In this document: in pieces, positions 2,522 through 18,167 of the stretch
How positions within the stretch are numbered: position 1 is the stretch's first letter
Layout of the letters: each line of letters begins with the position of its first letter
Origin: Proteobacteria bacterium UBA4656
GTDB lineage: Bacteria > Pseudomonadota > Gammaproteobacteria > Xanthomonadales > Ahniellaceae
NCBI GenBank assembly: GCA_002405525.1
Contig: DHLY01000078.1
Span: 1-27,440, forward strand
Direction: 5' to 3'
Length of the DNA stretch: 27,440 nucleotides
Made by a program: the position numbers and the translations under genes
Notes under the pieces: model-generated
Seen by the model: the letters and a program-made list of their open reading frames with translations, nothing else
Database searches by the model: none
Told to the model about the DNA's origin: nothing

Positions 2522-2524
2522 CGC

Positions 2525-4950: not shown

Positions 4951-6227
4951 AGAAAGAACTCAGACAGTTCGAGGCCGTAGGCGCCGGTGGGCAGTGCACG
5001 GGCGATCGACCGCCGGTTTCCAGTCACCGGATCACGGTCCGACCACAGATCGATCTGCGGGAAAGCATGGTCGATCGACTTGTCCGGATGCGTCAGCACG
5101 GTGATCCGCGGAAACAGGCGCCGGGCGAGGTTTTGCGCCATCACCACCGCCACCTCGCCGGTCGACAGCTCGACCAGTGAACCGGTGGGGTAGACGCCGA
5201 GTGCCTGGCTGAACTGTTCCAGCAACTCCGCCTGGTACAGCTCGTCGCGGTGCCGGTAAAGGCTCTGCAGCGCATGGTGGCGCGACATCGCCGCGCGGTA
5301 CGAGCGCTCGCTGCACATCGCGTCGTAGGAGTCGACGATGCCCAACATGCGCGCGGTGAGCGGGATATCGAGGCCGACGGCCCCATTCGGATAGCCGGTT
5401 CCGTCGTGTCGCTCGTGGTGGCCGGCGATCATCTCCACCACGGCAGGGTTGGCCAGACCCGATTCCTGCAGCTTCGACAGCCCGAGCGCAACGTGCTCCG
5501 ACATGGCGCTGCGGGCGGCTTCATCCAGGGGTTTGCTCTGACCCGGCAAATCCTCGGGCAGGGCGGCCATGCCCATGTCCATCAGCATGCCTCCGGCAGC
5601 CAGGTCAACGAGCATTTCGCGGGGAAAGCCGAGATGTCGACCGAAGGAAGCGGCCAGCGCACAGCAGTTGATTGCGTGGCTGTAGGCGTAGCCGTCCCTG
5701 CGCCGCAGTGCGTCGAGCCAGAAAAATGCATCCGGGTTGCGCACCACGCTGGCTACCACCGGCTGGATTGTCTCGACCAGCGCTTCGACCGCCACGCGTC
5801 GGCCGGCGCGGATGTCATCGATGCAGCGCGTGACGAACACCCTGGCATCGTCCCAGGCCGGACCAGCGCGTCTCGTCTCCTCGGCCAGCGTGACCGTATT
5901 CGGGTAGGGCGCCGGTTCCGGGAGCAGGGTCCCATCATGCCGCTCGCGCCGGAAGCCGAGCCGCTGGAGCAGGTTTGCAGTGCCGAGGCCGACGCTCTTC
6001 TCGACATCGATCCATACGTGGCGGCACAGCGCCGCCACCCTCGAGATGTCCTCCAAGGTCTGCACCAGAAACCCCTGCAGCGGGAAGTCGGTCTCCGTCC
6101 ACGGCCGGTCAAGACGGCAAATGTACATGCCGACCCTCAGGGCGGACGCTTCGACCTTCTGTTCTTCCACTTGCATCGCTCGGCGTTCCGGGATCGTGGC
6201 GGGCTTTTCGGCCACGTGCGGTCGCAT
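4947..6227 (-). CDS. HD-GYP-family protein with degenerate HD motif
   Basis: HD-GYP proteins hydrolyse cyclic di-GMP with a two- or three-metal centre. This 426-residue protein starts with the N-terminal domain common in the family (VEASALRVGMYICRLDRPW, about 25-43). The HD-GYP domain occupies roughly 165-345. The GYP part is well kept (GHHERHDGTGYPNG, 269-282). The HD part is not: the usual LLHDIGK is MLMDMGM (214-220), so the metal-binding His is Met and the Lys is Met. The upstream His (YSHA, 184) remains. Catalysis may therefore be lost or altered, leaving a binding or regulatory role. The ATG at 6225-6227 was chosen because GAGG lies nine bases upstream; a GTG at 6240-6242 is possible. 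It overlaps the EAL gene that follows. Confidence 0.85.
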   Translation of the reverse strand: MRPHVAEKPATIPERRAMQVEEQKVEASALRVGMYICRLDRPWTETDFPLQGFLVQTLEDISRVAALCRHVWIDVEKSVGLGTANLLQRLGFRRERHDGTLLPEPAPYPNTVTLAEETRRAGPAWDDARVFVTRCIDDIRAGRRVAVEALVETIQPVVASVVRNPDAFFWLDALRRRDGYAYSHAINCCALAASFGRHLGFPREMLVDLAAGGMLMDMGMAALPEDLPGQSKPLDEAARSAMSEHVALGLSKLQESGLANPAVVEMIAGHHERHDGTGYPNGAVGLDIPLTARMLGIVDSYDAMCSERSYRAAMSRHHALQSLYRHRDELYQAELLEQFSQALGVYPTGSLVELSTGEVAVVMAQNLARRLFPRITVLTHPDKSIDHAFPQIDLWSDRDPVTGNRRSIARALPTGAYGLELSEFFL

Positions 6228-6318
6228 GGCGACGACCCTCACAGCAAAAAGTGTGCCACAAAGGCGCCCGGGATGCGCCGATGTCTACGAATGCGTAACG
6301 AGGTTTGTCAGCGATCCA
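6228..6318. other. Short spacer between receptor gene and HD-GYP gene
   Basis: This contains the ribosome-binding site of the HD-GYP gene and presumably its promoter, since the receptor gene upstream is on the same strand. I see no clear terminator and no convincing -35/-10 pair. Confidence 0.4.
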
Positions 6319-8334
6319 TCAGAATCTGAAGCGCAGGCCGAGGGCGAGGTTGCGGCCCGGCAGCGGGGCGCGGTCCTTGATCAGCGAGGTGTGGACGCGG
6401 GCTTTCTCGTCGCCGAGGTTGCGGCCTTCCAGGAACAGCTCCCAGTCGCCGGCGGTGGCGGGCGACCAGGCGATGCGCGCGTCAACGAGGGTGTGGCCGT
6501 CGGTGGCGTCCTCGAACGTTGCGGTGCGGTCCTGCTCGGCCGTGCGGACCAGGTCGACGCCAGCCCGCCAGGCGCCGTGCGACCAGTCCAGGGAAGCGCC
6601 GATGCGGCCCGGCGCGATGCGCGGCAGGTCGCCGCCGTCGCGCAGGCGCCCGCGCACCGCGTCGGCGAACAGGCCGCCGTCGAAACGGCCCCACGCGGTG
6701 TCGGCGATGCGCCCCTTGATCTCGGCCTCGAAGCCATGGAAGCGGGCGTCCGCCTGCGTCCACACGCGCACCGGAAGATCGTCCTCGATCCCGTCGGTGT
6801 CCGCGAGGTAGATGAAATCGTCGAAGCGGTTCCAGTAGGCGGACAGCCGCGCTTCGATGCCATCCACGTGCCAATGCAGGCCCAGTTCGACCTGGTTGGC
6901 GGTCTCCTCGGACAGCGACGGATCGCCGATCTCGAAGCTGGCCGTGGCCTCGTGCGGGCCGTCGGAGAACAGTTCTTCCGCCTGCGGCGCGCGCTGCGCC
7001 CGGTCCAAGTTCACGGTGGCGTGCCAAGCCGCGGCGAAGTCCCAGCGCCCGGCGGCGGACAGGCTCAGCGCGTCGTGCTTCGCGCGCTCGCCATCGTCCG
7101 GCTCGACGGTCTGGCGGTCGTAGCGTGCGCCGAGTTCGAGCGCGAACGGCGCGAATTCCGCGCGTTCGACCAGGAACAGGCCGGTGTCGCGCGTCACCGA
7201 CGGCGGCACGAAGGCCTCGTCGCCGAGCGCCTCGAAATCGCGGCGGGACGCCTGCACGCCGACCGCGCCGCGCCACGCCCCGAGCGGGTCGTGGACGGCC
7301 TCGATGCGGCCCTCGACGGCGTCGTTGAAGAAGCGCGTGCCGACCTCGCGCTCACCGTCGTCCTCGTCGATCAGGAACTCGGTGTGCTGGTAATCGTTAT
7401 GCCCGATTCGCAGGTCGATCCGCTCCCAGCCCGCGAACGGCGGGCGCAAGCTGCCGTCGAAGTCGATGCGGCGCTGGTCGAGGTCGAGTTCGACCTTGCC
7501 CTCGCCGCCCTTGGCACGGCCGACGCCGGGCTTGGTCTTGGCGAACCGCGCTGCTGAGTCGTCGTCCTCTTCCTCCGGGGGGATGCCGTAGATGCTGTCA
7601 TAGGCCGAGAATGCGATTCCCGCGTGGCCGCGCTCGCCGGTCAGCGAGAACCCGACCGCGCGGCTGCGGGTCTCCGACTGCGTGTTCTCGATCTCGACCC
7701 CGTCGGGGCCCTCGTAGGGGTCGCCGCTGCGGTCCGACCAGTCGGCGTGGAAGGTGAAGTTGCCGTTGCCGGCATCGACGCGCCCGACGCCCGAGCGGCC
7801 CTCATTGACCGAGTCGGTGCGCAGTTCGACGCGGCCTTCGATGCCCTCGACCGGACGGTCCGGGATTCGGCCGTCTCGCACGTTGACCACGCCACCGATC
7901 GCGCCGCTGCCGTATAGCAGCGTCGCCGGACCCTTCAGGATCTCGATCTGGTCGGCGAGGAAGGGATCGATGGACACCGCATGGTCGACGCTGGTGGTCG
8001 AGACGTCGAGTGCGGAGATTCCGTCACCGAGGACCTGAACGCGCGGCCCTTCGAGGCCGCGGATGATCGGGCGCCCGACGCCCGGTCCGAAGTACGAGGA
8101 CCCTACGCCGGGCAGCTTGGCGATGGTTTCGCCCAGCGTATCGCCGCGTGCATCGTCCAGCGCCGTGCCGCCGAGCACCTCGGCAGGCTGCAGCAGTTCC
8201 TCTCCCTCGCGGGCCAGCGGATCGGCGGTGACGGTCAGCGCCTCCAGCCGTCGTGCGTCGGCTGAGGTTTCGGCGCGCGCGAGCGGCGCGAGCAGAGAGG
8301 CAATCGCGAGGGCAAGCAGATGCTGGCGGGACAT
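6319..8334 (-). CDS. TonB-dependent outer-membrane receptor (metal-type, ZnuD-like)
   Basis: TonB-dependent receptors import scarce metals or chelates across the outer membrane using energy from TonB-ExbBD. The 671-residue protein has a signal peptide (MSRQHLLALAIASLLAPLARA), a TonB-box-like LEALTVTA, and a plug domain with PGVGSSYFGPGVGRPIIRGL, DVSTTSVDHAVSIDPFLADQ and IEILKGPATLLYGSGAIGGVV. A beta-barrel follows, ending in the outer-membrane signature LGLRFRF. The plug resembles zinc receptors such as ZnuD, and a loop with EEEDDD and several acidic/His stretches would suit a metal, but the substrate is inferred. The ATG at 8332-8334 is preferred over the upstream TTG because it begins the signal peptide. 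The divergent MerC-domain gene supports a metal role. Confidence 0.88.
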   Translation of the reverse strand: MSRQHLLALAIASLLAPLARAETSADARRLEALTVTADPLAREGEELLQPAEVLGGTALDDARGDTLGETIAKLPGVGSSYFGPGVGRPIIRGLEGPRVQVLGDGISALDVSTTSVDHAVSIDPFLADQIEILKGPATLLYGSGAIGGVVNVRDGRIPDRPVEGIEGRVELRTDSVNEGRSGVGRVDAGNGNFTFHADWSDRSGDPYEGPDGVEIENTQSETRSRAVGFSLTGERGHAGIAFSAYDSIYGIPPEEEDDDSAARFAKTKPGVGRAKGGEGKVELDLDQRRIDFDGSLRPPFAGWERIDLRIGHNDYQHTEFLIDEDDGEREVGTRFFNDAVEGRIEAVHDPLGAWRGAVGVQASRRDFEALGDEAFVPPSVTRDTGLFLVERAEFAPFALELGARYDRQTVEPDDGERAKHDALSLSAAGRWDFAAAWHATVNLDRAQRAPQAEELFSDGPHEATASFEIGDPSLSEETANQVELGLHWHVDGIEARLSAYWNRFDDFIYLADTDGIEDDLPVRVWTQADARFHGFEAEIKGRIADTAWGRFDGGLFADAVRGRLRDGGDLPRIAPGRIGASLDWSHGAWRAGVDLVRTAEQDRTATFEDATDGHTLVDARIAWSPATAGDWELFLEGRNLGDEKARVHTSLIKDRAPLPGRNLALGLRFRF

Positions 8335-8367
8335 GACCGGAGTCCGTAGGGGTCCTGGAAGATACAA

Positions 8368-8378
8368 AGTAACTTACT
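8368..8378. promoter_or_regulatory. Small palindrome upstream of the receptor gene
   Basis: AGTAACTTACT is a perfect 5-1-5 palindrome in the AT-richest part of the divergent region, 33 bases upstream of the receptor start codon. It could be part of an operator for a metal regulator such as Zur, but it matches the published gammaproteobacterial Zur box only loosely. Confidence 0.25.
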
Positions 8379-8463
8379 GGGGCGGTTCTGAGTCAAGTGC
8401 TGGCGCCGACCCGATTGATTTTTTTGCCCGGCAGATTGACTCGCCGACCCGGCGAAGACGGGT

Positions 8464-8469
8464 TATACT
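8464..8469 (+). promoter_or_regulatory. Possible -10 element directly before merC-like gene
   Basis: TATACT ends six bases before the ATG of the MerC-domain gene, and no Shine-Dalgarno sequence fits in between. A TTGACT at 8436-8441 is a -35-like sequence, but the 22-base spacing is too long for a standard promoter. If the -10 is real the mRNA would be leaderless. Confidence 0.3.
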
Positions 8470-8475
8470 GTTGCC

Positions 8476-8919
8476 ATGATCGAGAACCGCCGTGTCGAGC
8501 GCGACGGGCAGGCCTTGTCCGGTCTGGATGTGGTCGGTGCGTCGGCTTCATTTTTGTGTGCGGTGCATTGCGCGGCCATGCCGATGCTGCTGCCGGTACT
8601 TCCATTGGCCGGGCTGGAGTTCCTTGCAGCCCACGAACTGGACCTTGCCTTCGTCGCCGGCGCGATCGTGCTTGGACTGGTGGCGGTGGTCCGCGGCTGG
8701 CGACACCACGGGGATCGGCGCGTGCCTGGCGGATTCGCGGTTGCCTCGCTATTGCTCGTCGCAGGTGTCTCGTTCCTGCATCACGGGCCGCTGCACGAGC
8801 CCACGCTGGTTGCCGGCGGGCTGGCGATGGGCTGGACTCACCTGCTGAACCTGCTGCTGCTGCGTCGCCACCGGTGTGACGCGTCCGGTCACGCGCCGCG
8901 TCCATCCGGCGCGGCTTGA
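8476..8919 (+). CDS. MerC-domain inner-membrane protein
   Basis: MerC-domain proteins are small inner-membrane proteins related to the mercury transporter MerC; chromosomal members are common near zinc-responsive genes and are thought to handle metals. The 147 residues contain four hydrophobic segments: about 19-50 with the motif FLCAVHCAAMPMLLPVLPL, then LAFVAGAIVLGLVAVV, GFAVASLLLVAGVSFL, and LVAGGLAMGWTHLLNLLLL. The Cys-x3-Cys pair (CAVHC) in the first segment is the likely metal-binding site. The C-terminus is His/Cys/Arg-rich (RRHRCDASGH). It is divergent from the receptor gene, suggesting shared control. Mercury transport is unlikely because no merR, merT, merP or merA is nearby. Confidence 0.85.
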   Translation: MIENRRVERDGQALSGLDVVGASASFLCAVHCAAMPMLLPVLPLAGLEFLAAHELDLAFVAGAIVLGLVAVVRGWRHHGDRRVPGGFAVASLLLVAGVSFLHHGPLHEPTLVAGGLAMGWTHLLNLLLLRRHRCDASGHAPRPSGAA

Positions 8920-8943
8920 TGTTTGCGCGATACTTGCTAACCT
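8916..8943 (+). promoter_or_regulatory. Likely sigma-70 promoter of the THX gene
   Basis: TTGATG (8916-8921) and TAACCT (8938-8943) are separated by 16 bases, with a TGC immediately before the -10. It overlaps the end of the MerC-domain gene and lies 35 bases before the THX start, a suitable distance. Confidence 0.5.
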
Positions 8944-8978
8944 GCCGGGCCCGAAGAACCGACGACTGGAGCAACCCC

Positions 8979-9143
8979 ATGGGCAAGGGCGACCGCCGCA
9001 CCCGCAAGGGCAAGATCGCGATCCGCAGTTACGGCATCAAGCGCCCGCACGCCGCGAAGACGGCCGGCGAGGTCAAGACAGCCGCTCCGGCCAAGCCTGC
9101 GCCGCGCAAAACCTCCGTCGCAGCGCCGAAGAAGAAGGCCTGA
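8979..9143 (+). CDS. Small ribosomal protein THX (bTHX)
   Basis: bTHX is a very small basic protein that sits in the head of the 30S ribosomal subunit in some bacteria. The 54-residue protein begins MGKGDRRTRKGKIAIRSYGI, which is diagnostic for the family, followed by a Lys/Ala/Pro-rich tail ending in PKKKA. The ATG at 8979-8981 has TGGAG eight bases upstream; a longer in-frame start further upstream has no such support. The gene is monocistronic, with its own promoter and a hairpin after it. Confidence 0.93.
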   Translation: MGKGDRRTRKGKIAIRSYGIKRPHAAKTAGEVKTAAPAKPAPRKTSVAAPKKKA

Positions 9144-9173
9144 TCGGGGTTCAGCGAACCAGCGTTGCTTCCA

Positions 9174-9204
9174 CCGACGGCGGGCGATGCCCGCCGTCGG
9201 CGTT
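9174..9204 (+). terminator. Strong hairpin after the THX gene
   Basis: CCGACGGCGGGC (9174-9185) and GCCCGCCGTCGG (9189-9200) form a perfect 12-bp stem with a three-base loop, followed by CGTTT. The T-run is short, but the stem is very stable and lies 31 bases after the stop codon. Confidence 0.75.
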
Positions 9205-9261
9205 TCAGGGGGCTCGCGGGCAGGGCGTGCGGAAAGTGCTTTCCTGCACTTCCTCGAGGTC

Positions 9262-9288
9262 GCGAGTCCGGCGCGTGTCCGGACTCGC
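9262..9288. terminator. Second hairpin, between THX and hutI
   Basis: GCGAGTCCGG and CCGGACTCGC form a perfect 10-bp stem around a seven-base loop in the convergent THX/hutI interval. It has no T-run on either strand, so a terminator or mRNA-stabilising role is a guess. The rest of 9144-9372 holds no gene that I can support. Confidence 0.4.
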
Positions 9289-9372
9289 TCCCGCCGAAGC
9301 AACCGCTCTTGCGACTGATTCGCGGGCGAGGCATTCATGCCGCGCGCCCGCAGAGTGTTTCTCGACACCCTG

Positions 9373-10587
9373 CTAGGGCAGGCCGCCGGCCACCAGTCGC
9401 CCACCGGCAAACACGCTGCGCGCAAGGCGCCCGGCTGCCCAGTACGCCAGCGCCTCCGGCTGTCCCGCATCCCAAAGCACGAAATCGGCGTCGCCCCCCT
9501 CCCTCAGTTCGCCCTTGCGGCCGGAGAGTCCGAGCGCGCCCGCGGCGTGGCGCGTGGCGCCGGCGAGCGCCTCCATGGGGTCCAGCCCGAACGCCGAGCA
9601 CGATAGGTGCATCGCCAGCCGCAACGAGCGCAGCGGGGACGAGCCGGGGTTGAGGTCGGTCGCCACCGCGATCGGCACCGCGTGCGCGCGCAGCGCCGCC
9701 ACCGGTGGCAGCCGCGTCTCCCGCAGGACCAGGAAGGACCCCGGCAGCAGCACCGCCACGGTGCCCGAGCGGGCCATTTCGGCCACGGCGTCTTCGCAGG
9801 TCCATTCGAGGTGGTCGGCCGACAGCGCGCCGTGGCGCGCCGCGAGTCGGGCGCCACCGCCATCGGACAACTGGTCGGCGTGCAGCTTCACCGGCAGTCC
9901 GGCCGCGTGCGCCGCGCGAAAGATGCGTTCGACCTCGCCCTGAGAAAACGCGATGCCTTCTGCGAAGCCATCGACCGCGTCGACGAGTCCCTCGGCGGCG
10001 AGCGGGCCGATCGTGGCGCAGACCTCGTCGACGTAGTCGCCGCGGCGCTGCGCGTGCGACGGCGGCAGCGCATGCGCCCCGAGGTAGGTGGTCCGCACGG
10101 TGATGCCGAGAATGCGGCCGATCCGTCGTGCAATCCGCAGCATGCGGCGCTCGGCGTCCGGCTCGAGACCGTAGCCGGACTTGATCTCGATCGTCGTCAC
10201 GCCGTCCTCGACGAGGTCGCGCGCGCGTGGCAGGGAAGCGGCGAGCAGTTCGTCCTCGGTCGCCGCGCGCGTCGCTCCGACCGTCGCCAGGATCCCGCCG
10301 CCCGCCTGCGCGATCTGCGCGTACGACGCTCCGCGCAGCCGGGCGCCGAACTCGCGGCTGCGATCACCGGCGAAGACGAGGTGGGTGTGGCAGTCCACCA
10401 GGCCCGGCGTGAGCAGGCGGCCCGCCCCGGAAAACCGCAGCACCGCGGTGCCGGCGTAGGCGCCCGCGGGTCCGGCGAACGTGATCCGGCCGTCGCGCCA
10501 TGCGATCGCGGCATCGTCGACGGGGTCGGAACCACGGCCGTCCCAGAGCCGGATGTCGCGCAGCAGGCCGTCATCGTGCAAGTGCAT
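9373..10587 (-). CDS. hutI: Imidazolonepropionase
   Basis: HutI hydrolyses 4-imidazolone-5-propanoate to N-formimino-L-glutamate, the third step of histidine degradation, in the cytoplasm. The 404-residue protein matches the usual family length. It is an amidohydrolase with the metal-binding DCHTH (65-69) followed by LVFAGDR, the substrate-loop IEIKSGYGL, YLGAHALPP, KLHADQLSD and the conserved ATDLNPGS. The ATG at 10585-10587 was chosen because it gives the standard N-terminus; the longer frame upstream has no family resemblance. The gene is divergent from hutF with 80 bases between them. No hutH, hutU or hutC lies in the window. Confidence 0.95.
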   Translation of the reverse strand: MHLHDDGLLRDIRLWDGRGSDPVDDAAIAWRDGRITFAGPAGAYAGTAVLRFSGAGRLLTPGLVDCHTHLVFAGDRSREFGARLRGASYAQIAQAGGGILATVGATRAATEDELLAASLPRARDLVEDGVTTIEIKSGYGLEPDAERRMLRIARRIGRILGITVRTTYLGAHALPPSHAQRRGDYVDEVCATIGPLAAEGLVDAVDGFAEGIAFSQGEVERIFRAAHAAGLPVKLHADQLSDGGGARLAARHGALSADHLEWTCEDAVAEMARSGTVAVLLPGSFLVLRETRLPPVAALRAHAVPIAVATDLNPGSSPLRSLRLAMHLSCSAFGLDPMEALAGATRHAAGALGLSGRKGELREGGDADFVLWDAGQPEALAYWAAGRLARSVFAGGRLVAGGLP

Positions 10588-10667
10588 GCGCCAATTGTAA
10601 GCCCGGTGCGCGGGCGCTTGAGGGGTTCGGGGTCGACGCGCGCCGGGCAAGGCCGTAACGTAGGCCG
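10588..10667. promoter_or_regulatory. Divergent hutI/hutF control region
   Basis: These 80 bases must hold both promoters if the genes are expressed from here. I found no palindrome resembling the HutC operator and no clear -35/-10 pair. The ribosome-binding site of hutF is weak (GTAGG five bases before the ATG). Confidence 0.4.
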
Positions 10668-12035
10668 ATGGACCTGCCAGGCCGCGTCCGCTGCGATCAT
10701 GCGCTGCTGCCTTCGGGCTGGGCCGACGACGTCGTGATCGAGGTTGGCGCGGATGGAAGCCTGGTTGCCGTCGCCGCCGGCACGCCGGGTACGGGCCTGC
10801 CGTCGATCGGGCGCTGGGTGGTGCCCGGCATGCCGAACCTGCATTCGCATGCGTTCCAGCGCGCGATGGCGGGCATGGCCGAGCGGGGGCATGCGGGCGA
10901 CGATGACTTCTGGACCTGGCGTGAGGCCATGTACGCCGTCGCTGAGCGGCTGTCGCCGGATTCGCTACGTGCGATCGCCGCGCAGATCTACGCCGAGTTG
11001 CTGTGCACGGGCTACACCGCGGTCTGCGAGTTCCACTACGTCCACCACCGGCCGGAGGGTGCGCCGTACGCGCCGGCGTCGGCGATGTCGGACGCCCTGC
11101 GCGAGGGCGCGCGCGAGGCGGGCATGGGGCTCACGCTGCTGCCGACGCTGTACCAGGTCGGTGGCTTCGACGGCCGGCCGCTGGCGCCGAGGCAGGCGCG
11201 CTTCGCGCATGCGGTCGATGGATTCCTTGACTTGGTGTCGACCCTGCGCGCTACCGAGGACGCCGACACGCGGATCGGCGTCGCCATCCATTCGCTGCGC
11301 GCCGTGCCGCCGGACAGCCTCGCGGCGCTGCTCGGTGCCGGCGTCGCGGGCACTGGCCCCGTGCACATCCACGTCGCCGAGCAGTTGGGTGAAGTCGACG
11401 ACTGCCTGCGCGAGCGCGGTGCGCGGCCGGTGGACTGGCTGCTCGACCACGCCGCGGTCGATCCCCGCTGGTGCCTCGTGCACGCCACCCATCTGGCGGC
11501 CGGGGAGCGCGAGCGCCTGGCGCGCTCGGGCGCGGTCGCGGGACTCTGCCCGACCACCGAGGCCAACCTCGGTGACGGCCTGTTCGCGTTGCCCGAGTGG
11601 CTCGGGCTTGGCGGGTCGTTCGGGATCGGCTCGGACAGCCACGTCTGCGTCTCGGTGGCCGAGGAGTTGCGCTGGCTCGAGTACGGGCAGCGACTGCGGC
11701 TGCTGCGTCGCAACGTCACCGCGCCGCAGGGCGGCGGATCGACGGCGCAGGCGCTGTGGCTTGGCGCCGCGCTCGGCGGCGCGCAGGCCTGCGGACGACC
11801 GGTGGGCGCGATCGCACCGGGTTGCCGTGCCGACCTGGTGGTCCTCGATCACGACGCGCCGATGTTCGAGGGGCATGGCCCGGAGCGTGCGCTCGACGCG
11901 CTGGTGTTCGGCGGCGGGCAGGGCGGGGTGAGAGATGTGTATGTCGGTGGCCGCCGCGTGGTCGCGGACGGCCGGCACCGGGATGCCGTGCGAATCACGA
12001 CGCGCTGGCGCGCCGCGATGCGGGACCTCGGCTGA
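10668..12035 (+). CDS. hutF: Formimidoylglutamate deiminase
   Basis: HutF deiminates N-formimino-L-glutamate to N-formyl-L-glutamate and ammonia, the branch used by many proteobacteria, where HutG then releases glutamate and formate. The 455-residue protein is of family length. It has the amidohydrolase motif PNLHSHAFQRAM (metal ligands H59 and H61), VHIHVAEQ, LVHATHL and the metal-binding Asp in FGIGSDSHV. The ERGHAGDDDFWTWR loop and the FHYVHH segment are typical for HutF rather than for other deaminases. The ATG start gives a complete N-terminus. It reads away from hutI and ends 39 bases before the convergent mtrB-type gene. Confidence 0.94.
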   Translation: MDLPGRVRCDHALLPSGWADDVVIEVGADGSLVAVAAGTPGTGLPSIGRWVVPGMPNLHSHAFQRAMAGMAERGHAGDDDFWTWREAMYAVAERLSPDSLRAIAAQIYAELLCTGYTAVCEFHYVHHRPEGAPYAPASAMSDALREGAREAGMGLTLLPTLYQVGGFDGRPLAPRQARFAHAVDGFLDLVSTLRATEDADTRIGVAIHSLRAVPPDSLAALLGAGVAGTGPVHIHVAEQLGEVDDCLRERGARPVDWLLDHAAVDPRWCLVHATHLAAGERERLARSGAVAGLCPTTEANLGDGLFALPEWLGLGGSFGIGSDSHVCVSVAEELRWLEYGQRLRLLRRNVTAPQGGGSTAQALWLGAALGGAQACGRPVGAIAPGCRADLVVLDHDAPMFEGHGPERALDALVFGGGQGGVRDVYVGGRRVVADGRHRDAVRITTRWRAAMRDLG

Positions 12036-12074
12036 GGCGGATGGCGATGGCGAGGACGCGCCCCGCCGGCGTCA

Positions 12075-14381
12075 TCAGAAGCGATACACGAAGGCCAAAC
12101 TGGCCACCCAGACGTTGTAGTCCGGGCTGTCCTCGCCGAGCAGGATCACGTTGGCGAGCTGGTTGGCCGGCACGTTGTCCACCGCCCAGTCGGTCGTCGC
12201 GTAGTCTTCGTAGGCAAAGCGCACCCGCACGGTTGTGTCCTTGCGCCAAGCCCAGTCGCCGTAGATCGACGCCGAGGTGAGGTCGGTCCTGGCGGTCGGC
12301 AGCGGCGCGCTGACCAGCGCAGGTCCGGTGGTGGTGAGTACGTCAGCGTCGGTCTTGGCGCGCACGTAGTCGACGCCGACCTTGAACTTCCCCTCGAGGA
12401 CGCTCGCGATGGCGCCGAGTCCCCAGGTGTCGATGTCGTCGCGGCTGCGCGTAGTCCAGTTGCGGTTGGGATCGAACGACTGCGGCGAACGGTTCGACCA
12501 GGCGCGGCCGTTCTGATCGTTCTTGTAGCGCTCGACCGAGTAGAAGCCGTACAGCGAGCCCACTTCGCTCGGCGCCCATGTCAGATCGGCGTTGTAGCCG
12601 TTGACGCGGCTGAAGGTGAGGCCGAACTCTGAGTTGTCGTAGTCGTCCTCGCTGTAGTTGACGTTCAGTCCCAGCGCCACGGTCTCGGCCAGTGCGAGGT
12701 TGCCAAACACCTCGGCCTGCCGGCGATCGCGGTCGGCCTGGTTGAACTTGCGCATGCCGGGCAGGTTCTCGAACGGGAATCCGCCGACGAACGGCAGCTG
12801 CGCGTTTGTGTAGCCCGGCGCGTAGCCGTTGATGAAAGTCTCGTAGCCGCGGTATTCGCTGCCGTCGCGGCTGGCGACCGACAGTCGCAGGCCGCCGGAC
12901 ACCAGGCCGGTGGCGGTGTTGGTGAACGACAGCGTGTAGCGGTCCTCGTCGAGCCGCTCGCGCTCCTGGTGCGGGCGGTCGATTCGCTTCCACTGCGCGT
13001 CGCCGGCGATCCGCAGCCAGTCCAGCGCGCGCCAGGTGCCGTCGAGCCGGAACGAAGTCTGTTCCTGGCTCTTGGGCTCGTTGAAGCGGCGGAAGCCGCT
13101 GTTGGCTGCGGTGTTCTGAGTGTTCGAGTCGCCGCCGATGTAGACGTACTCGTCGTGCGGCGTCCGGTTGTCGCGGTCGTCATAGCGCAGGTTGGCGTTC
13201 CAGTAGAGCGTCGACGTCGGGCGGTGCGAGAAACGCAGCGCCGCGTAGGTGCTGTCGACGCGACCGTCAAGCGACAGGCGGGGCAGGGGCTGGGTGATGC
13301 TCGCCGCCAGCACGGGGTTGATGGTGTAGGGCAGGAATGGTTCGTCCTGGGTCGCCCGGCCGTACGAGAGGTCACCGGTCAGACGCATGGTGTCGCTGAT
13401 CGTCCAGCCACCGGTGGCGTAGATCTGGTGGAACTCGTTGTCGGGCGCCAGACCCTTCTGGCCGGACCCGGCGGGGAACCCCGCCGATGTCCAGCCGTTG
13501 ATGTTGCTGTACGGGTTCTGCCAGCGCAGCGCGCTGTTCTCGTTGTCGAACAGCGACATGTAGTACCCGACCCGTATCTGGTAGTCGGGGCGGGCGAAAG
13601 TCAGGGCCACGTCGGCGGTCTGGGTGAGGTAATCCACCGGTTCCGGCGCCAACACCGCCCGCGGGTTACCGCCGGAGTTGCCGATCGTCAGGCCGATGGT
13701 CTTGAGGCCGTCCTTCTCCTCGCGGCTGTAGGCGGTCTCGAGGTTCCACTTCGGCGCGGGGATCCAGTCGAAGCCGATGTCGAACCGGCGACGCTCGTGC
13801 TCCACGTCGAACGGCCGCAGCGATTCCGTCAGCCGCGTCATGCCTGCGGTGTTCTGCCCTCCGACCCAGTTCGAGGGCAGGGTGAGGCTGGTCGCCCCCG
13901 GGTTGGTGAAGATGGTCCGCGTCGTATCGAGGTGGTTGTGCGGTGTCTGGTCGAAGCCGAGGCGGAAGGCCCACTGGCCCTGGCGGCCGTACTCGAACGA
14001 GGCTTCGCGCGAATCGAGGCCCAGTTTCTCGGCCTGCGCGCGCCACCAGGTCGGGTCATCGCCATCCCAGGCGCCGCGCTTGAAGATGTCGAAACCCAGC
14101 ACGGCGAACACGCCCTCGTCGGTGAGTCCGGTGTAGCGGCCGTAGCGGAAGGCATCGTCACTGAGGAAGCCGAGGCCGACCTCCACCATGCTGGTGATCT
14201 CGGTCTGCTCCTTGAGCAGTTCAGCCGTGTCCCTCATCGGCTCGTCGCCATCGAGCGAGAACTCGTCCTGCGCCAGCGCCGGCACCGAAGCCATGGCCAG
14301 CGCAAGCAGGCAGGCGCGCATCAGCGGCACTGCGAGTTGCGCGCGGATGGCACGGGACAGGGGGGTGCGTTTGATCGGCAT
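12075..14381 (-). CDS. mtrB: MtrB/PioB-type outer-membrane beta-barrel of a decaheme conduit
   Basis: MtrB/PioB proteins are large outer-membrane porins that hold an MtrA-type cytochrome inside the barrel, so electrons can cross the outer membrane. The 768-residue protein has a basic N-terminus and signal peptide (cleavage near ALAQDEF). Family motifs follow: VEVGLGFLSDDAFRYGRYTG, then repeated alternating strands rich in aromatic and charged residues, ending in ASLAFVYRF with a terminal Phe as barrel proteins do. It is somewhat longer than Shewanella MtrB (about 700 residues). The mature part has no cysteine, so the CXXC of Shewanella MtrB is absent. It is the last gene of the operon, 28 bases after the decaheme gene, with GAGGAG before the ATG. 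Its partner is almost certainly that cytochrome. Confidence 0.88.
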   Translation of the reverse strand: MPIKRTPLSRAIRAQLAVPLMRACLLALAMASVPALAQDEFSLDGDEPMRDTAELLKEQTEITSMVEVGLGFLSDDAFRYGRYTGLTDEGVFAVLGFDIFKRGAWDGDDPTWWRAQAEKLGLDSREASFEYGRQGQWAFRLGFDQTPHNHLDTTRTIFTNPGATSLTLPSNWVGGQNTAGMTRLTESLRPFDVEHERRRFDIGFDWIPAPKWNLETAYSREEKDGLKTIGLTIGNSGGNPRAVLAPEPVDYLTQTADVALTFARPDYQIRVGYYMSLFDNENSALRWQNPYSNINGWTSAGFPAGSGQKGLAPDNEFHQIYATGGWTISDTMRLTGDLSYGRATQDEPFLPYTINPVLAASITQPLPRLSLDGRVDSTYAALRFSHRPTSTLYWNANLRYDDRDNRTPHDEYVYIGGDSNTQNTAANSGFRRFNEPKSQEQTSFRLDGTWRALDWLRIAGDAQWKRIDRPHQERERLDEDRYTLSFTNTATGLVSGGLRLSVASRDGSEYRGYETFINGYAPGYTNAQLPFVGGFPFENLPGMRKFNQADRDRRQAEVFGNLALAETVALGLNVNYSEDDYDNSEFGLTFSRVNGYNADLTWAPSEVGSLYGFYSVERYKNDQNGRAWSNRSPQSFDPNRNWTTRSRDDIDTWGLGAIASVLEGKFKVGVDYVRAKTDADVLTTTGPALVSAPLPTARTDLTSASIYGDWAWRKDTTVRVRFAYEDYATTDWAVDNVPANQLANVILLGEDSPDYNVWVASLAFVYRF

Positions 14382-14409
14382 GGCTCTCCTCGCATCCGCT
14401 CGTGGGGAA

Positions 14410-15336
14410 TCAGCGCGTCTGGCGGGCGCCGGACGGATGGTTCGACCCGTGTACTTCGGTGTGGCAGTTCATGCAGTTCTTGCCGAGCACCTGCTGCGCG
14501 CCGGAGGGCCGGTTGGCGCCGGGCAGGCCGGTGCCGCTGTAGGCGTTCGACGGATGGTTGCCGGCCGAGTGGCACTGCTCGCAGAGCCAGGGGCCGCGCG
14601 TGTTGAGCATCGCGACATGCACCGAGCCGTGCGGCTTGTGGCAGTGGCTGCAGTCGTCGTTGACCGGCTGATGCTCCCACAGGAAGGGACCGCGCTTGTC
14701 GGCGTGGCAGGTGTAGCAGGTCTCGACGGTGTTGTTCTTCACCAGCGAGCCCTGGGACGTCGAGCCGTGCGGATTGTGGCAGTCCGAGCAGCCGACCTTG
14801 CCCTCCTGGATCGGATGGCGGAACGGCTTGAACAGGTCGGCGCGCTGCTGCGTGTGGCAGGACAGGCAGACTTCGAATTCGGTGCTCTTGTCGAGCACGG
14901 CGTCGTGGGCCACGTGGGTGTCGTGGCAACCCGAGCAGCTGACATTCTCGTTGTCGTGAACGCTGCCGGCCCAGTGCATCTGCGCGCCACCCTGGTGGCA
15001 GGTCAGGCACACCTGGTTGCCCGTTCTGGCGTCGGACTCCTTGAAGGTCACGTCGGGGGCGGGCTTGGCGTCGCCTTCGCCCTCGAGGTGGGCTGTGCTC
15101 GGGCCGTGGCAGGTCACGCAGGCCTGGTCGGCGAACGGTGTGCGCGGATCAGCGACCACGCCGTGCCTGGTCTTGAGGATCGGCAGCACCGGGACTTCGG
15201 ACGTTTCGTCGTGGCACTTCACGCACGACCTGTAGCCGGGGTTGTCGACACCCTCCGCGGCGCGCGCAAGCGGGGCGGCGACGGCGGTCGCGAGGGCTGC
15301 GGCCGCCATCCAGGCGTGAATGCTGTGCAGTGGCAT
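14410..15336 (-). CDS. mtrA: DmsE/MtrA-type periplasmic decaheme cytochrome c
   Basis: The protein carries electrons between periplasmic donors and the outer-membrane porin. The 308-residue sequence has a signal peptide (cleavage near residue 26, PLARA-AEG) and exactly ten CXXCH haem motifs: CVKCH, CVTCH, CLTCH, CSGCH, CLSCH, CSDCH, CYTCH, CSHCH, CEQCH and CMNCH. Ten haems and a length near 310-330 residues are the hallmark of the MtrA/DmsE/PioA group. Distal His residues sit in family positions such as HWAGSVHDNENVSCSGCH and FRHPIQEGKVGCSDCH. The ATG at 15334-15336 has GGGAGG upstream. No DMSO reductase genes are present, so the neutral name MtrA fits at least as well as DmsE. The gene lies between the haem protein and the porin. 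Confidence 0.93.
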   Translation of the reverse strand: MPLHSIHAWMAAAALATAVAAPLARAAEGVDNPGYRSCVKCHDETSEVPVLPILKTRHGVVADPRTPFADQACVTCHGPSTAHLEGEGDAKPAPDVTFKESDARTGNQVCLTCHQGGAQMHWAGSVHDNENVSCSGCHDTHVAHDAVLDKSTEFEVCLSCHTQQRADLFKPFRHPIQEGKVGCSDCHNPHGSTSQGSLVKNNTVETCYTCHADKRGPFLWEHQPVNDDCSHCHKPHGSVHVAMLNTRGPWLCEQCHSAGNHPSNAYSGTGLPGANRPSGAQQVLGKNCMNCHTEVHGSNHPSGARQTR

Positions 15337-15385
15337 GGTGCCTCCCAGGTTCGTTGTCGTGAACGCTGACGCGCGCGATGCCGGC

Positions 15386-16348
15386 TCAGTTCTTCTTCGC
15401 CACGAAGTCCGCCGCGCCGCTATCGATCGACAGCGAGTGCTCCATCGACACGTAATGCCAGCGGCCCTTGGTCGAGCCGTCGTGGATCGCGATTCCGACG
15501 GGGTAGGCCGCGCCCGCAGCCAGCGACTTCTGGCCGGGGCCGGCGCCTGCGAGCGCGCGGCTCAGGACCACGGTCCACTCGCCGCCGGCGAAACTGGCTT
15601 CGGCGCTGACCGAGGGCGTGGCCGCGGCATGAGTCTTGTCGAGGATGTAGCCGTTCCCGGCGACCGGAGGCTTGCCCGGGTTGAGCGCCGCCGTCCAGTA
15701 CTCGAGGAAGGTGCCGGCCGCGAGCAGCTTGTCGATCTCCGCCTGTGGCTTGAGGTTGGCGCCGCCGCCGCTGCGACCGAGCTTGGCACGCGAGGCGCCG
15801 AGGTACTTTTCCTGCGGCGCCGTACCGGCGCTGGCCATGCCTTCGACGTCGTCGTGGCATGCCGCCCAGCAGCCGGCGCGCACCGCTTCCTTCACGCTGG
15901 CGTCGGACAGCATCACGCTGGCATGGGCAGCGACTTCGGATTGATTGGCGTTGGTGCCGGTCTCCTTCCACTGCAACCGGAACAGGAGCTTCGAGCCGTC
16001 GTGCGCGACCTGCACCTTGACCGGCAAATGGCCGGGCTTGCCCGCGATCGGCGCAGGCTCGAGCTTGCCGCCCTTGGCGACCTTGGCGCCGTCCTTCGCG
16101 ATCGATTCGTGGTCATGGCAGCCACGGCAGTCCTTGCCGCCACGGAATTTCTCGGCGCCCTCGTGGTCGTTCTTGGTCAGCGTCCATTCCCAGGAGGCCT
16201 GGCCGGCGTAGGCGAGGGTGACGGTCTTCGCCGGCACTGCGCTCCAGTCGACGGCCAGCGACTGTCCGGCGGGCAGCCCGGCAAGCAGGCAGGCGAGGGC
16301 GAGAGGGCGCAGCGCGACGCGGGTCCGATTCGAGGTCATCGTCGTCAT
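15386..16348 (-). CDS. Periplasmic haem protein with ethylbenzene-dehydrogenase-type haem domain
   Basis: The 320-residue protein has a signal peptide (ALRPLALACLLAGLPAGQSLA). It carries one standard haem c motif CRGCH (74-78) and one unusual CWAACH (160-165, CX3CH). Spacing and sequence from about 95 on (LPVKVQVAHDGSKLLFRLQW, then EYWTAALNPGK, WTVVLSRAL, YPVGIAIHDGSTKGRWHYVS) resemble the haem-binding domain of ethylbenzene and DMSO dehydrogenase gamma subunits, which hold haem b. It is probably a soluble periplasmic electron carrier between the NapC-type protein and the decaheme cytochrome. The ATG at 16346-16348 was chosen; a second ATG lies three codons later. It follows the napC-type gene by four bases and precedes the decaheme gene by 49. 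I am sure of haem binding, less of the exact family. Confidence 0.8.
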   Translation of the reverse strand: MTTMTSNRTRVALRPLALACLLAGLPAGQSLAVDWSAVPAKTVTLAYAGQASWEWTLTKNDHEGAEKFRGGKDCRGCHDHESIAKDGAKVAKGGKLEPAPIAGKPGHLPVKVQVAHDGSKLLFRLQWKETGTNANQSEVAAHASVMLSDASVKEAVRAGCWAACHDDVEGMASAGTAPQEKYLGASRAKLGRSGGGANLKPQAEIDKLLAAGTFLEYWTAALNPGKPPVAGNGYILDKTHAAATPSVSAEASFAGGEWTVVLSRALAGAGPGQKSLAAGAAYPVGIAIHDGSTKGRWHYVSMEHSLSIDSGAADFVAKKN

Positions 16349-16352
16349 CCGT

Positions 16353-16961
16353 TCAGAGAGAGAAATCCTCGGACTCGCCTTCCTCGGCCGGCATGTCCGG
16401 CTTGCGGTGGGCGATACCCTTGTGGCAGTCGATGCAGGTTTCGCCGCTCTTCGACGCGTCCTCGTGCGCTTCGCGGGCACGGCCCGACTGCGCCGCGAAA
16501 TCCATGAACGCGCGCTCGTGGCAGGAGCGGCACTCGCGCGAGTCGTTGGCCTTCATCTCGGCCCACACGACCTCCGCCATGTGCAGGCGCCGGGCCTCGA
16601 ACTGCTCCGGGGTGTCGATCCAGCCGAAGATCTCACCCGGCACGTCGGTCCACGCAGCGCGGATCTTGCGCTGCATCTTGGGGATGAATTGCTGAGCGAG
16701 GTGGCAGTCCGCGCAGCCGGCGCGCACGCCGGCGCGGTTGGTGAAGTGCGCACTGGCCTCCCATTCGGGGGCCACGTGGGTCTTCATGGAGTGGCAGGCG
16801 TAGGCGCAGAACTGGTCGGTTTGCGTCGCCTGCAGCCCCGTGTTGGCCGCCGCCACGACGGCGATGCCGGCCACGAAGCCTCCCGTCAGCAGGGTGCCCA
16901 CAGACCAGCGCCGACTCGGCGTCAGGATCCCGACCCAGATGCGCTTGATCCATCCGAACAC
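16353..16961 (-). CDS. NapC/NirT-type membrane-anchored tetraheme cytochrome c (CymA-like)
   Basis: NapC/CymA proteins oxidise quinol at the inner membrane and pass electrons to periplasmic cytochromes. The 202-residue protein has one N-terminal membrane anchor (about 20-40, VGTLLTGGFVAGIAVVAAAN) and the haem region behind it. Haem motifs are CAYACH (52-57), CADCH (83-87), CRSCH (144-148) and CIDCH (176-180). The first one is CX3CH where the family normally has CXXCH, with the usual following Met kept (CHSM). The start is a GTG at 16959-16961 with GGAGG five bases upstream; the longer frame lacks family resemblance. It is the first gene of the operon, so it probably supplies quinol electrons to the haem protein, MtrA and MtrB. 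An FNR-type palindrome lies 101 bases upstream. Confidence 0.9.
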   Translation of the reverse strand: MFGWIKRIWVGILTPSRRWSVGTLLTGGFVAGIAVVAAANTGLQATQTDQFCAYACHSMKTHVAPEWEASAHFTNRAGVRAGCADCHLAQQFIPKMQRKIRAAWTDVPGEIFGWIDTPEQFEARRLHMAEVVWAEMKANDSRECRSCHERAFMDFAAQSGRAREAHEDASKSGETCIDCHKGIAHRKPDMPAEEGESEDFSL

Positions 16962-17061
16962 ACCCACCTCCGTTCGATCGCGCCGCGTTGAGCGGGCTCC
17001 GGCGGGTCGGGGCAGCCGGTGTGCCCGGTGGCGACTCTGCTTGCACCCAAGGGCTTCGGTC

Positions 17062-17075
17062 TTGATCGAGGTCAA
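17062..17075. promoter_or_regulatory. FNR/ANR-type box between the cytochrome operon and ubiA
   Basis: TTGATCGAGGTCAA fits the FNR/ANR consensus TTGAT-N4-ATCAA with one mismatch. It is centred in the 228-base divergent region, 101 bases from the napC-type start and 114 from the ubiA start, so it could act on either gene. The remainder of 16962-17189 shows no clear promoter elements. Confidence 0.6.
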
Positions 17076-17189
17076 GAACCGCGCGACCGACCCTGCGACC
17101 TCTTGCAGCGCTGCCCGAGGCCTCTCGCGCACGGTGTCCGGGGTGGGGCATCATCGTCCGCGCCGCACCACCATCGGGGAGTACGACAG

Positions 17190-18167
17190 GTGAAGCCCAT
17201 TCACGATCCACGCGCCCTCGCGCTGCCGCAGGAACCCACGCCGGAAAGCCTGCGCGCGCCGCTGGCGCGTCTGCTGCTGGCCACGCGGCCACCGTTCCTG
17301 ACCATCACCCTGGTCGGCGCCCTGCTCGGGATCGCGGTGGCCTGGTCCGGCGGCGCTGCGCTTTCCCCATGGATCGCGCCGGCGACCGTGCTGCTCGCGC
17401 TGACCATGCACGCCGGGGTCAACGTCCTCAACGACTGGTGCGACCACGTGAACGGCACCGACGAGATCAACGATGGCCGCATCTATCCGTTCACCGGCGG
17501 CTCGCGCTTCATCCAGAACCGGCTGATGACGCCGGCGTCGATGCGCGCCTTCGCGTTCGCGCTGTTCGCCTTCACCATCGCCGGTGGGCTGTTGCTGGCG
17601 GCGAAGGTCGGCGTCGGTCTGCTCGCCTTCGGCATCGCGGGCGCGGTGATCGGCTGGGCCTACTCGGCGCCGCCGCTGGCACTGAACAGCCGCGGGCTCG
17701 GGGAGTTCTGCGTCGCGGCATCCTTCTGGCTGCTGGTGGCGGGCGCGGACTTCGTCCAGCGGGGCGCCTTTGCCGCCACCCCGTTCCTCGCCGGCGGCGC
17801 CTACGCGCTGTTGACCACCAACATCCTCTACATCAACCAGTTCCCGGATCGCGCGGCCGACCTCGCGGTCGGCAAGCACCACTGGGTCGCCCGGCTTACA
17901 CCGAGTACCGCACGCTGGGGATATGTGCTGATCCTGCTCGCCGCGGTCGCGGCGCTGGTCGGACCGGTGGCCGCCGGCGCGCTACCGGCGTGGGCGCTGC
18001 TCGGGCTGCCGGCCTTCGTGCCGGCAGTGCTCGCCGCGCGCGGTCTGCTCGCCCACGCCGACGAGCCGAAGCGGCTCGCGCCGGCGATCAGGCAAACCAT
18101 CGCCGCCGCGCACCTGGTCGCGGTGCTGGTCGCGGTGGGGTTGCTGGTCGCCGGTCGAGCGGCCTGA
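17190..18167 (+). CDS. UbiA-family prenyltransferase, MenA-like
   Basis: UbiA-family enzymes attach an isoprenoid chain to an aromatic ring, for example in ubiquinone or menaquinone synthesis, in the inner membrane. The 325-residue protein has about eight or nine membrane segments. Its two Asp-rich motifs are NDWCDHVNGTDE (81-92) and NQFPDRAADLAVGKHHW (216-232). The first motif, with NDxxDxxxGxDE, is more like MenA (1,4-dihydroxy-2-naphthoate prenyltransferase) than UbiA. The GTG start at 17190-17192 has GGGGAG eight bases upstream; the longer frame is not supported. It is divergent from the cytochrome operon and upstream of the hydrogenase locus, suggesting a quinone used by these systems. 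The exact aromatic substrate cannot be read from the sequence. Confidence 0.85.
   Translation: MKPIHDPRALALPQEPTPESLRAPLARLLLATRPPFLTITLVGALLGIAVAWSGGAALSPWIAPATVLLALTMHAGVNVLNDWCDHVNGTDEINDGRIYPFTGGSRFIQNRLMTPASMRAFAFALFAFTIAGGLLLAAKVGVGLLAFGIAGAVIGWAYSAPPLALNSRGLGEFCVAASFWLLVAGADFVQRGAFAATPFLAGGAYALLTTNILYINQFPDRAADLAVGKHHWVARLTPSTARWGYVLILLAAVAALVGPVAAGALPAWALLGLPAFVPAVLAARGLLAHADEPKRLAPAIRQTIAAAHLVAVLVAVGLLVAGRAA

Follow-up and report, generated by a model that had tools for sequence, protein, structure and literature searches.

A probable NirTB-like electron module coupled to an MtrAB conduit in a gammaproteobacterial contig

Introduction

How do electrons cross the periplasm to an outer-membrane MtrAB conduit outside Shewanella, and in which direction do they travel? 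The question is raised by four consecutive genes in the window, the whole stretch of 27,440 nucleotides of contig DHLY01000078.1 that was analysed. MtrAB homologues are known in both electron directions. To our knowledge, the periplasmic carriers known so far (STC, FccA, PdsA and PmcA) are group-specific. In the window, the conduit genes stand beside a cytochrome with an EB_dh (ethylbenzene dehydrogenase-type) fold, which the original prediction took for an added periplasmic link, and near an uptake hydrogenase, which it took for a possible electron source.

The four-gene cluster

The features relevant to the question are as follows.

12075..14381, minus strand: MtrB/PioB-family outer-membrane beta-barrel (PF11854 494 bits; TIGR03509 456 bits; 6r2q_B E 1.3e-47)
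14410..15336, minus strand: MtrA/DmsE-family decahaem cytochrome (TIGR03508 281 bits; 6r2q_A E 7.4e-83)
15386..16348, minus strand: EB_dh-fold dihaem c-type cytochrome, NirB-like (PF09459 101 bits)
16353..16961, minus strand: NapC/NirT-family tetrahaem quinol dehydrogenase, NirT-like (PF03264 214 bits; TIGR02161 230 bits)
near the cluster, opposite strand: uptake hydrogenase small subunit (PF14720/PF01058)
near the cluster, opposite strand: uptake hydrogenase large subunit (PF00374 762 bits)
near the cluster, opposite strand: hydrogenase b-type cytochrome (TIGR02125 221 bits)

The four tightly spaced minus-strand genes lie where they had been placed, and profile scores confirm their families. 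Counted from NapC to MtrB, the intergenic gaps are 4 (or 13, depending on whether EB_dh starts at 16348 or 16339), 49 and 28 bases. The NapC start, a GTG at 16961, was set from the homologue in the closest relative (locus L001), a protein of 202 aa with three CXXCH motifs and one CX3CH. The translated window protein likewise has three CXXCH and one CX3CH (CAYACH), the latter coming first, while the EB_dh translation has a signal-like stretch at its N terminus, one CXXCH (CRGCH) and one CX3CH (CWAACH). The earlier labels "tetraheme" and "diheme" are correct if CX3CH is counted and fail on CXXCH alone; "decaheme" stands, with ten CXXCH in the MtrA translation.

MtrA exceeds the cut-off of 192 for TIGR03508 (DmsE family) and MtrB that of TIGR03509; the NapC protein remains under the curated TIGR02161 cut-off of 311. 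In a sequence search, MtrA and MtrB matched the chains of 6r2q, named as the MtrAB complex in the available text of PMC10654088, over nearly their full length, and by this homology the MtrB barrel would sheathe MtrA. Judged by its sequence, with a decahaem MtrA/DmsE cytochrome and an adjoining MtrB/PioB barrel, the cluster is a conduit of the MtrAB/PioAB/MtoAB kind, and the proposed NapC-type feed is supported. The profile scores, together with the fact that distant genomes show the order again, exclude a chance origin of the cluster. A promoter and terminator scan of positions 11900-17500 gave no sigma-70-like site and a single terminator-like site, compared with 2.7 in shuffled sequence.

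Recurrence of the gene set in relatives

One genome scan returned 347 loci encoding EB_dh relatives, on alpha- and gammaproteobacterial contigs by their titles, and 80 were kept as loci L001-L080. One of the two seed patterns included CX3CH, so that motif conservation within these 80 is partly a product of selection; a separate HMM search is free of this bias. MtrA was counted as close downstream when a match above 60 bits lay on the same strand with its ORF midpoint within 4 kb. This applies to 53 of the 80 kept loci; of the remaining 27, 6 lie on contigs that stop too early to judge. The full order NapC-EB_dh-MtrA-MtrB, which the original prediction proposed to seek in related genomes, was found in 34 of the 80, and co-conservation thus holds. 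Rehaibacterium terrae DSM 25897 (L009, genome G006), which is in culture, also has the complete set.

The genes of the set differ in how closely they keep together. Across 33 gene sets (L021 and L032 of the 34 four-gene loci excluded), EB_dh distances between pairs correlate with those of MtrA at r 0.87, a value that includes shared species history; none of 500 permutations exceeded 0.22. NapC distances follow EB_dh less closely (r 0.54). The ORF search found EB_dh-MtrA-MtrB without an adjacent NapC in 12 of the 80 loci, in one of which (L005) tblastn shows NapC. Because of this weaker correlation and these 12 loci, NapC is taken to be replaceable.

Genome-wide searches covered 49 genomes with an EB_dh relative; 30 of the 80 loci, L015 and L065 among them, lie outside this set, and L022 and L060 share one genome. 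MtrB was matched in 43 of the 49 and had no match in 6, MtrA exceeded its cut-off in 42, and MtrC exceeded its own in 2. Seen from the barrel, a hand comparison of two 369-genome searches found MtrB above 200 bits in 28 genomes. EB_dh adjoins MtrB in four of these (G001, G287, G576 and G331, the last with a divergent EB_dh), lies on a different contig in G570, G342 (divergent) and G403 (fusion type), and is represented by weak matches only in G604 and G460. EB_dh next to MtrB is a minority design in the class compared. Among viral contigs, 83 stretches fit an EB_dh pattern and none encoded a relative.

The NapC and EB_dh pair and nitrite reductase operons

The haem motifs of EB_dh, CXXCH and CX3CH, are kept in all 116 rows compared; this count and the tree exclude the duplicates L086, L088, L091, L093 and L095 as well as wide re-fetches of loci already included. 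Of the 30 loci L091-L120, 21 encode NapC and EB_dh as one polypeptide, which Pfam confirmed on two fusions. A NirS homologue stands directly ahead of the fusion in 15 of the 18 fusion loci fetched wider, and L140 has NirS, NapC and EB_dh unfused. The NapC and EB_dh pair resembles NirT and NirB of cytochrome cd1 operons, a likeness pointed out here as new.

In those operons, tetrahaem NirT and dihaem NirB are encoded immediately downstream of nirS, nitrite reduction requires NirT, and a fused NirTB is known (PMC13086519, 2026). In Pseudomonas stutzeri RCH2, nirS, nirF and Psest_0817, annotated "Ethylbenzene dehydrogenase", lose fitness alike, at -2.1 each under Cr(VI) plus nitrate and -0.5 to -0.7 in the control (PMC5554334).

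The NirS-linked branch of the tree has 30 rows (96% SH-aLRT) and does not include the window EB_dh; 27 rows of this tree were labelled NirS-fusion from ORF length in L097-L120, without NirS seen in each. No cd1 domain was found among the window proteins scanned, and the best score in the closest relative (G001) is 28 bits. Because of this absence and the separate branch, the window pair is regarded as NirTB-like and not as NirTB. A cytochrome-D1 match above 450 bits occurs in 12 of the 49 genomes, a score that alone cannot separate NirS from NirF or NirN; the NirS-like protein of L124 scores 404.

The surroundings of EB_dh vary further. In three loci (L043, L079 and L132) a monohaem porin takes the place of MtrAB behind NapC-EB_dh, and in L029 EB_dh is followed by such a porin on a contig that starts there; the pair is therefore exchangeable between exits. 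EB_dh also adjoins a PQQ alcohol dehydrogenase in L039 and L065, and a small dihaem cytochrome in L036, L056, L058 and L070.

Direction of electron flow and location of EB_dh

In the window set, a NirTB-like electron module is probably coupled to an MtrAB conduit in the outer membrane, with outward flow and without an MtrC-type surface cytochrome. The NapC/NirT protein would oxidise quinol at the inner membrane, and the NirB-like EB_dh dihaem protein would accept the electrons in the periplasm and hand them to MtrA inside the MtrB barrel. MtrAB would then deliver them to a cell-surface acceptor without the aid of an MtrC-type cytochrome; candidate outside acceptors are Fe(III), Mn(IV), humics, an electrode or another cell. 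That EB_dh passes electrons to MtrA, that they flow outward and what accepts them outside are our inferences. By analogy with NirTB, the electrons are probably sent outward.

An Mto/Pio-like uptake route is unlikely, although several observations are in keeping with it. Fe(II), minerals or electrodes would then be the electron source of MtrAB, EB_dh would ferry the electrons across the periplasm and NapC would reduce quinone. The mtoA, mtoB, imoA (NapC family) and pmcA cluster of Sideroxydans lithotrophicus shares this logic, and PmcA, to which EB_dh can be compared, interacts with both ImoA and MtoA (PMC13390432). A Ferrovaceae region encoding DmsE, MtrB/PioB, NapC/NirT and a c-type cytochrome has been hypothesised to be Mto-like (PMC13390463), and MtrC is absent beside the window cluster. 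RuBisCO matches above 390 bits occur in 19 of the 49 genomes, so some relatives may be electron-uptake autotrophs; this count does not decide direction. Against uptake, 30 of the 49 genomes have no such match, and the match in the closest relative, G001, scores 85 bits and contains an internal stop. On the reductive side, the closest experimental use of NirT and NirB is reductive (PMC13086519), and a published enrichment with an EB_dh-MtrA-MtrB operon reduces goethite (PMC6933298).

That EB_dh is instead an extracellular terminal cytochrome replacing MtrC, as suggested for the Telmatospirillum "cytochrome c-552 (2 hemes)", is improbable. A localisation program put the Telmatospirillum protein outside (PMC6933298), and L037, from the same isolate (SA7853_bin3), has EB_dh followed by MtrA and then by a weak match to MtrB. 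The order EB_dh-MtrA-MtrB parallels mtrC-mtrA-mtrB, and 47 of the 49 genomes have no MtrC match over cut-off. However, EB_dh is fused to a NapC domain in NirTB-type proteins that stand with NirS, which is periplasmic, and in the porin variants EB_dh stays while the outer protein is a different one. The lipobox pattern, used as a lipoprotein signal, does not fit the window protein and fits one (P0106) of the 26 rows of alignment A1, which comprises the window and 25 rows picked by hand from 180 homologues; this is weak location evidence. In a Foldseek comparison, a link between EB_dh and MtrC (6qyc) appeared only at E 0.5 and was taken as chance. The NapC-EB_dh fusions place EB_dh beside the inner-membrane cytochrome, which supports the originally predicted added periplasmic link. 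From the NirTB-like reading it follows that EB_dh would be a periplasmic bridge and not a substitute for MtrC.

The hydrogenase lies behind a UbiA gene (17073-18167) and a HupE/UreJ gene. Considered as a candidate menaquinone link, the UbiA gene has DHNA polyprenyltransferases as its top NCBIfam models, all under cut-off. The order conduit-UbiA-HupE-hydrogenase is common to the window and L001, and H2-fed iron reduction has been discussed for the Telmatospirillum culture (PMC6933298). Among the 80 loci, 53 of which extend 7 kb or more beyond the EB_dh match on its upstream side, both the UbiA match and the HyaB match within the fetched DNA occur in L001 only. A close HyaB relative (at least 69% identity, above 650 bits) occurs in 8 of the 49 genomes. 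It is very improbable that the cluster is dedicated to H2 oxidation, with the adjacent uptake hydrogenase feeding it through the quinone pool: the hydrogenase is on the opposite strand, and Rehaibacterium (G006) has the conduit with no HyaB match above 20 bits. Since the hydrogenase is nearby in the closest relative only, H2 coupling is not a conserved function; the hydrogenase was rejected as a conserved partner, and its coupling, proposed earlier, is not supported as a property of the system.

Significance

The four genes most likely wire the inner membrane to the cell exterior. The feed is a pair of haem proteins that otherwise supply electrons to a nitrite reductase, suggesting that bacteria have re-used one electron module for several end points. 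The chances are about even that NapC plus EB_dh is a general plug-in from the quinone pool to the periplasm, attached by evolution to at least three exits: cd1 nitrite reductase, MtrAB and a Cyc2-like monohaem porin. The results bear on how electrons traverse the periplasm to MtrAB conduits outside Shewanella, and point to a carrier that is usually accompanied by a quinol dehydrogenase of its own and is found repeatedly on alpha- and gammaproteobacterial contigs. They suggest a testable direction (outward, on the NirTB analogy), question the published guess of an extracellular EB_dh protein in Telmatospirillum (PMC6933298) and offer a reason for the labels "NapC" or "cytochrome c-552" on the EB_dh carrier. 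If the proposal is true, many bacteria annotated with just these labels would be unrecognised users of an MtrC-free extracellular electron pathway.

Comparison with known systems

The EB_dh fold is shared with the gamma subunits of type II DMSO reductases (EbdC, NxrC). Unlike these, the window protein has two covalent c-type haem motifs, and against TIGR03477 it reaches 45 bits, far under the cut-off of 170. No molybdenum-subunit domain was found among the window proteins scanned, and the DmsA and DmsB domains of a DmsEFAB system, a possible dedicated partner in the original prediction, were absent from the 19 window translations scanned with Pfam, a subset of the ORFs.

With MtrCAB of Shewanella (6r2q), the window cluster has MtrA and MtrB homologues in common, and its NapC-family feed resembles CymA. 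MtrCAB has MtrC, whereas the window cluster does not: none of the four genes encodes an OmcA/MtrC-family surface cytochrome, and the best match in G001 is 18.8 bits. The place of the Shewanella carriers STC, FccA and PdsA would be taken by EB_dh. A term search of the main text of a survey of MtrCAB accessory genes (PMC8805035) did not find the word ethylbenzene.

The MtoAB-ImoA-PmcA system of Sideroxydans lithotrophicus ES-1, which additionally encodes MtoD, likewise clusters a NapC-family protein, a periplasmic cytochrome and an MtrAB-type conduit (PMC12016527, PMC13390432). PmcA is a His/Met cytochrome with one haem and a potential of about -143 mV (PMC13390432), whereas the window has the dihaem EB_dh protein as the sole other cytochrome between NapC and MtrA; monohaem cytochromes of the PmcA or MtoD type are absent from the cluster. 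Slit_2494 of Sideroxydans, which has one haem motif and is co-expressed with Mto on magnetite (PMC12016527), was ruled out as an EB_dh protein, being the monohaem PmcA (PMC13390432).

The "cytochrome c-552"-MtrA-MtrB operon of Telmatospirillum SA7853_bin3 (PMC6933298) has the same EB_dh-MtrA-MtrB order in L037; there NapC is not adjacent, whereas in the window it adjoins EB_dh. By product names, the Ferrovaceae four-product region (PMC13390463) has the same list as the window, its c-type cytochrome being a candidate counterpart of EB_dh. NirTB and EB_dh are unmentioned in the available text of these two papers.

The nirTB genes of Stutzerimonas, fused in Halomonas, likewise combine a tetrahaem protein of the NapC/NirT family, as a neighbour or in one chain, with a dihaem protein taken to be EB_dh and sharing both haem motifs; NirB is equated with EB_dh by gene order, haem number and annotation. 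The nirTB pair stands behind nirS, whereas the window pair precedes mtrAB.

The four-gene cluster

The original prediction described four tightly spaced minus-strand conduit genes, and this is borne out by the domain scores and the intergenic distances. On the minus strand of the window, the gene order is NapC/NirT, EB_dh, MtrA, MtrB; the intergenic gaps measure 4 (or 13), 49 and 28 bases, and profile searches make the families of the four products certain. MtrA and MtrB match both chains of 6r2q, described as the MtrAB complex (PMC10654088). EB_dh contains one CXXCH and one CX3CH haem motif, while NapC contains three CXXCH and one CX3CH. By hand count, CX3CH is present in 15 of the 51 NapC matches (ORF search, 80 kept loci); it is also reported adjoining the membrane anchor in two Rhodoferax CymA homologues (PMC6295460). 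Other window features are:

174-3416 (-), left end: IS21-type transposase pair (rve/Mu-transpos_C_2; IstB, PF01695) and an HTH_21 fragment
3694-12035, left of the conduit: EAL/GGDEF protein, HD-domain protein with DUF3391, TonB-dependent receptor, MerC protein, two amidohydrolases (one with HutF_N)
25283-26011 (+): one hydrogenase accessory protein, a rubredoxin domain fused to HybE

Conservation of the gene set

Searching genome contigs with an alignment of 26 EB_dh rows gave 347 encoding loci, and 80 of these were retained. The four-gene order, for which a search in relatives had been proposed, proves to be co-conserved: by same-strand ORF search, 34 of the 80 loci show the full order and 53 have MtrA close downstream of EB_dh; for 6 of the remaining 27, the contig is too short to tell. 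Weak tblastn matches missed by the ORF search are NapC in locus L005 and MtrB in L037. According to record titles, the sources include Lysobacteraceae, other Gammaproteobacteria (Methyloprofundus, Thiohalomonas, Nevskia), many Alphaproteobacteria and three Marinimicrobia-labelled bins. Because EB_dh is rare in the Rehaibacterium family (two full-length matches, one in Rehaibacterium itself, and one weak partial match in 198 genomes), sporadic transfer or loss is suggested there.

Whole-genome searches covered 49 genomes behind 50 loci. MtrB is found in 43 of these genomes, which may be incomplete, MtrA exceeds its cut-off in 42, and MtrC in 2 (G020, G027). MtrB was not found in the six source genomes of L036, L056, L070, L043, L079 and L044; EB_dh neighbours there include a small dihaem cytochrome (L036, L056, L070) or a porin following EB_dh (L043, L079). 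Consequently, the tie between EB_dh and MtrAB is strong, but not exclusive.

Probable NirB identity of the nir-operon EB_dh

Within the same class, a profile search of 369 genomes found EB_dh matches, some weak, in 46. In 21 of the 30 loci returned (L091-L120), NapC and EB_dh share one open frame. Single fusions are 559-604 residues long and carry one CX3CH besides five CXXCH; double fusions with tandem EB_dh (NapC-EB_dh-EB_dh) comprise 914-989 residues with six CXXCH and two CX3CH, and three are complete:

L098, 667-3636: double fusion
L102, 487-3273: double fusion
L108, 114-2858: double fusion

Pfam confirms one single and one double fusion (L124 and L131). Wider DNA was obtained for 18 fused-type loci (L121-L131, L135-L139, L149, L150; L130 and L149 partly seen). 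Immediately upstream of the fusion, 15 of them encode the cytochrome cd1 protein of L124 (PF02239, 404 bits) or a protein at least 69% identical to it; in the remaining three, the contig ends there. NirF-like, NirDL-like and uroporphyrinogen-methyltransferase genes lie near the fusions in the representatives scanned, and in L140 a cd1 protein, NapC and EB_dh are encoded by three unfused genes.

A 2026 paper on Stutzerimonas reports tetrahaem nirT and dihaem nirB immediately downstream of nirS, a requirement for NirT in nitrite reduction by strain ZoBell, and a fused NirTB in Halomonas (PMC13086519). In P. stutzeri RCH2, Psest_0817, named 'Ethylbenzene dehydrogenase', is reported with fitness nearly equal to that of nirS and nirF (-0.7, -0.5 and -0.6 in the control; -2.1 each with Cr(VI); PMC5554334). 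Taken together, the fusion loci, the published nirTB genes and the Psest_0817 fitness identify the nir-operon EB_dh protein as the probable NirB by gene order, haem count and annotation. One source labels P0002, P0005, P0009 and other EB_dh homologues 'cytochrome c-type protein NapC'; the fusions would explain the origin of this mislabel.

In a quick EB_dh tree, built with no bootstrap or outgroup and silent on which use arose first, the 30 NirS-linked rows group together (96% SH-aLRT), and the window EB_dh lies in a separate branch with 56 of 57 MtrAB-labelled rows; the lone exception, L134, has a long branch. NirTB joined to MtrAB was not found among the best-ranked matches in open-licence PMC papers. 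Two papers notice the EB_dh-MtrA-MtrB operon in Telmatospirillum (PMC6933298) and a Ferrovaceae region with the same product list as the four-gene cluster (PMC13390463), without identifying NirTB in the relevant passages, and the word ethylbenzene is absent from an MtrCAB survey (PMC8805035).

Possible hydrogen coupling

The suggested coupling to H2 oxidation is not supported as a general function. The hydrogenase stands beside the conduit in both the window and L001, the closest relative's locus, where the order conduit-UbiA-HupE-hydrogenase is the same. It is not conserved as a partner: HyaB lies near the cluster in L001 only among the 80 loci (in 53 of which the sequence extends 7 kb or more upstream of EB_dh), and 8 of the 49 genomes encode a close HyaB homologue (at least 69% identity, >650 bits). 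H2 coupling is therefore no property of the conduit system as such; in the window organism, it is possible via a shared quinone pool.

Direction of electron flow

The observations concern genes, motifs, fold and conserved neighbourhoods. In the proposed route, electrons would pass from quinol to NapC, from NapC to EB_dh, and then through MtrA inside MtrB to the outside. Against outward flow, MtrAB homologues are used in both directions, the Mto pathway is described with the same layout (PMC13390432, PMC12016527), and the Ferrovaceae region has been hypothesised to be Mto-like (PMC13390463). Outward flow is nevertheless preferred, because NirTB feeds a reductive chain and because a Telmatospirillum culture with the EB_dh-MtrA-MtrB order is reported to reduce goethite (PMC6933298); L037 comes from the published Telmatospirillum isolate. 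MtrAB with two monohaem cytochromes, likewise without MtrC, is described from a Methylobacter bioanode (PMC13322032).

Other neighbourhoods and a proposed second exit

EB_dh also occurs in the following settings:

L039, 8127-10951, and L065, 7928-10879: PQQ-dependent alcohol dehydrogenase (TIGR03075 over cut-off) beside EB_dh, small monohaem cytochromes nearby
L036, L056 (9099-9830), L058 and L070 (9184-9885), magnetospirilla and Terasakiella: two-CXXCH cytochrome of about 240 aa, divergent from EB_dh
L019, 6138-8978, and mates such as L022, L027, L049, L052, L060, L062 and L068 (group of nine loci): DUF1800 and DUF1501 genes after EB_dh-MtrA-MtrB, no adjacent NapC
L029 (995-2248), L043 (8252-9454), L079 (10991-12226) and L132 (7956-9185): monohaem porin-cytochrome of about 410 aa after EB_dh, one CXXCH behind a signal-like stretch

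MtrAB was not found in the fetched DNA of L039 and L065. The two-CXXCH cytochrome of L056 weakly matches PdsA, and three of the four genomes of its group give no MtrB match. A cytochrome-b561-like stretch was read by eye upstream in L037 (7549-8415), L038 and L069.

The four porin-linked EB_dh rows form one clade (95%), and NapC precedes EB_dh in three of these loci; the L029 contig begins at EB_dh. The porin-cytochromes of L029, L079 and L132 are 45.9%, 43% and 52% identical to that of L043. The predicted structure (pLDDT 68, pTM 0.69, weak towards the haem end) has outer-membrane porins as its matches (best E 4.6e-12), and in a Pfam scan of two of the proteins, one matched a porin weakly. 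This arrangement would be a second exit beside MtrAB, in which a monohaem porin takes MtrAB's place behind EB_dh; in layout it resembles the fused cytochrome-porin Cyc2.
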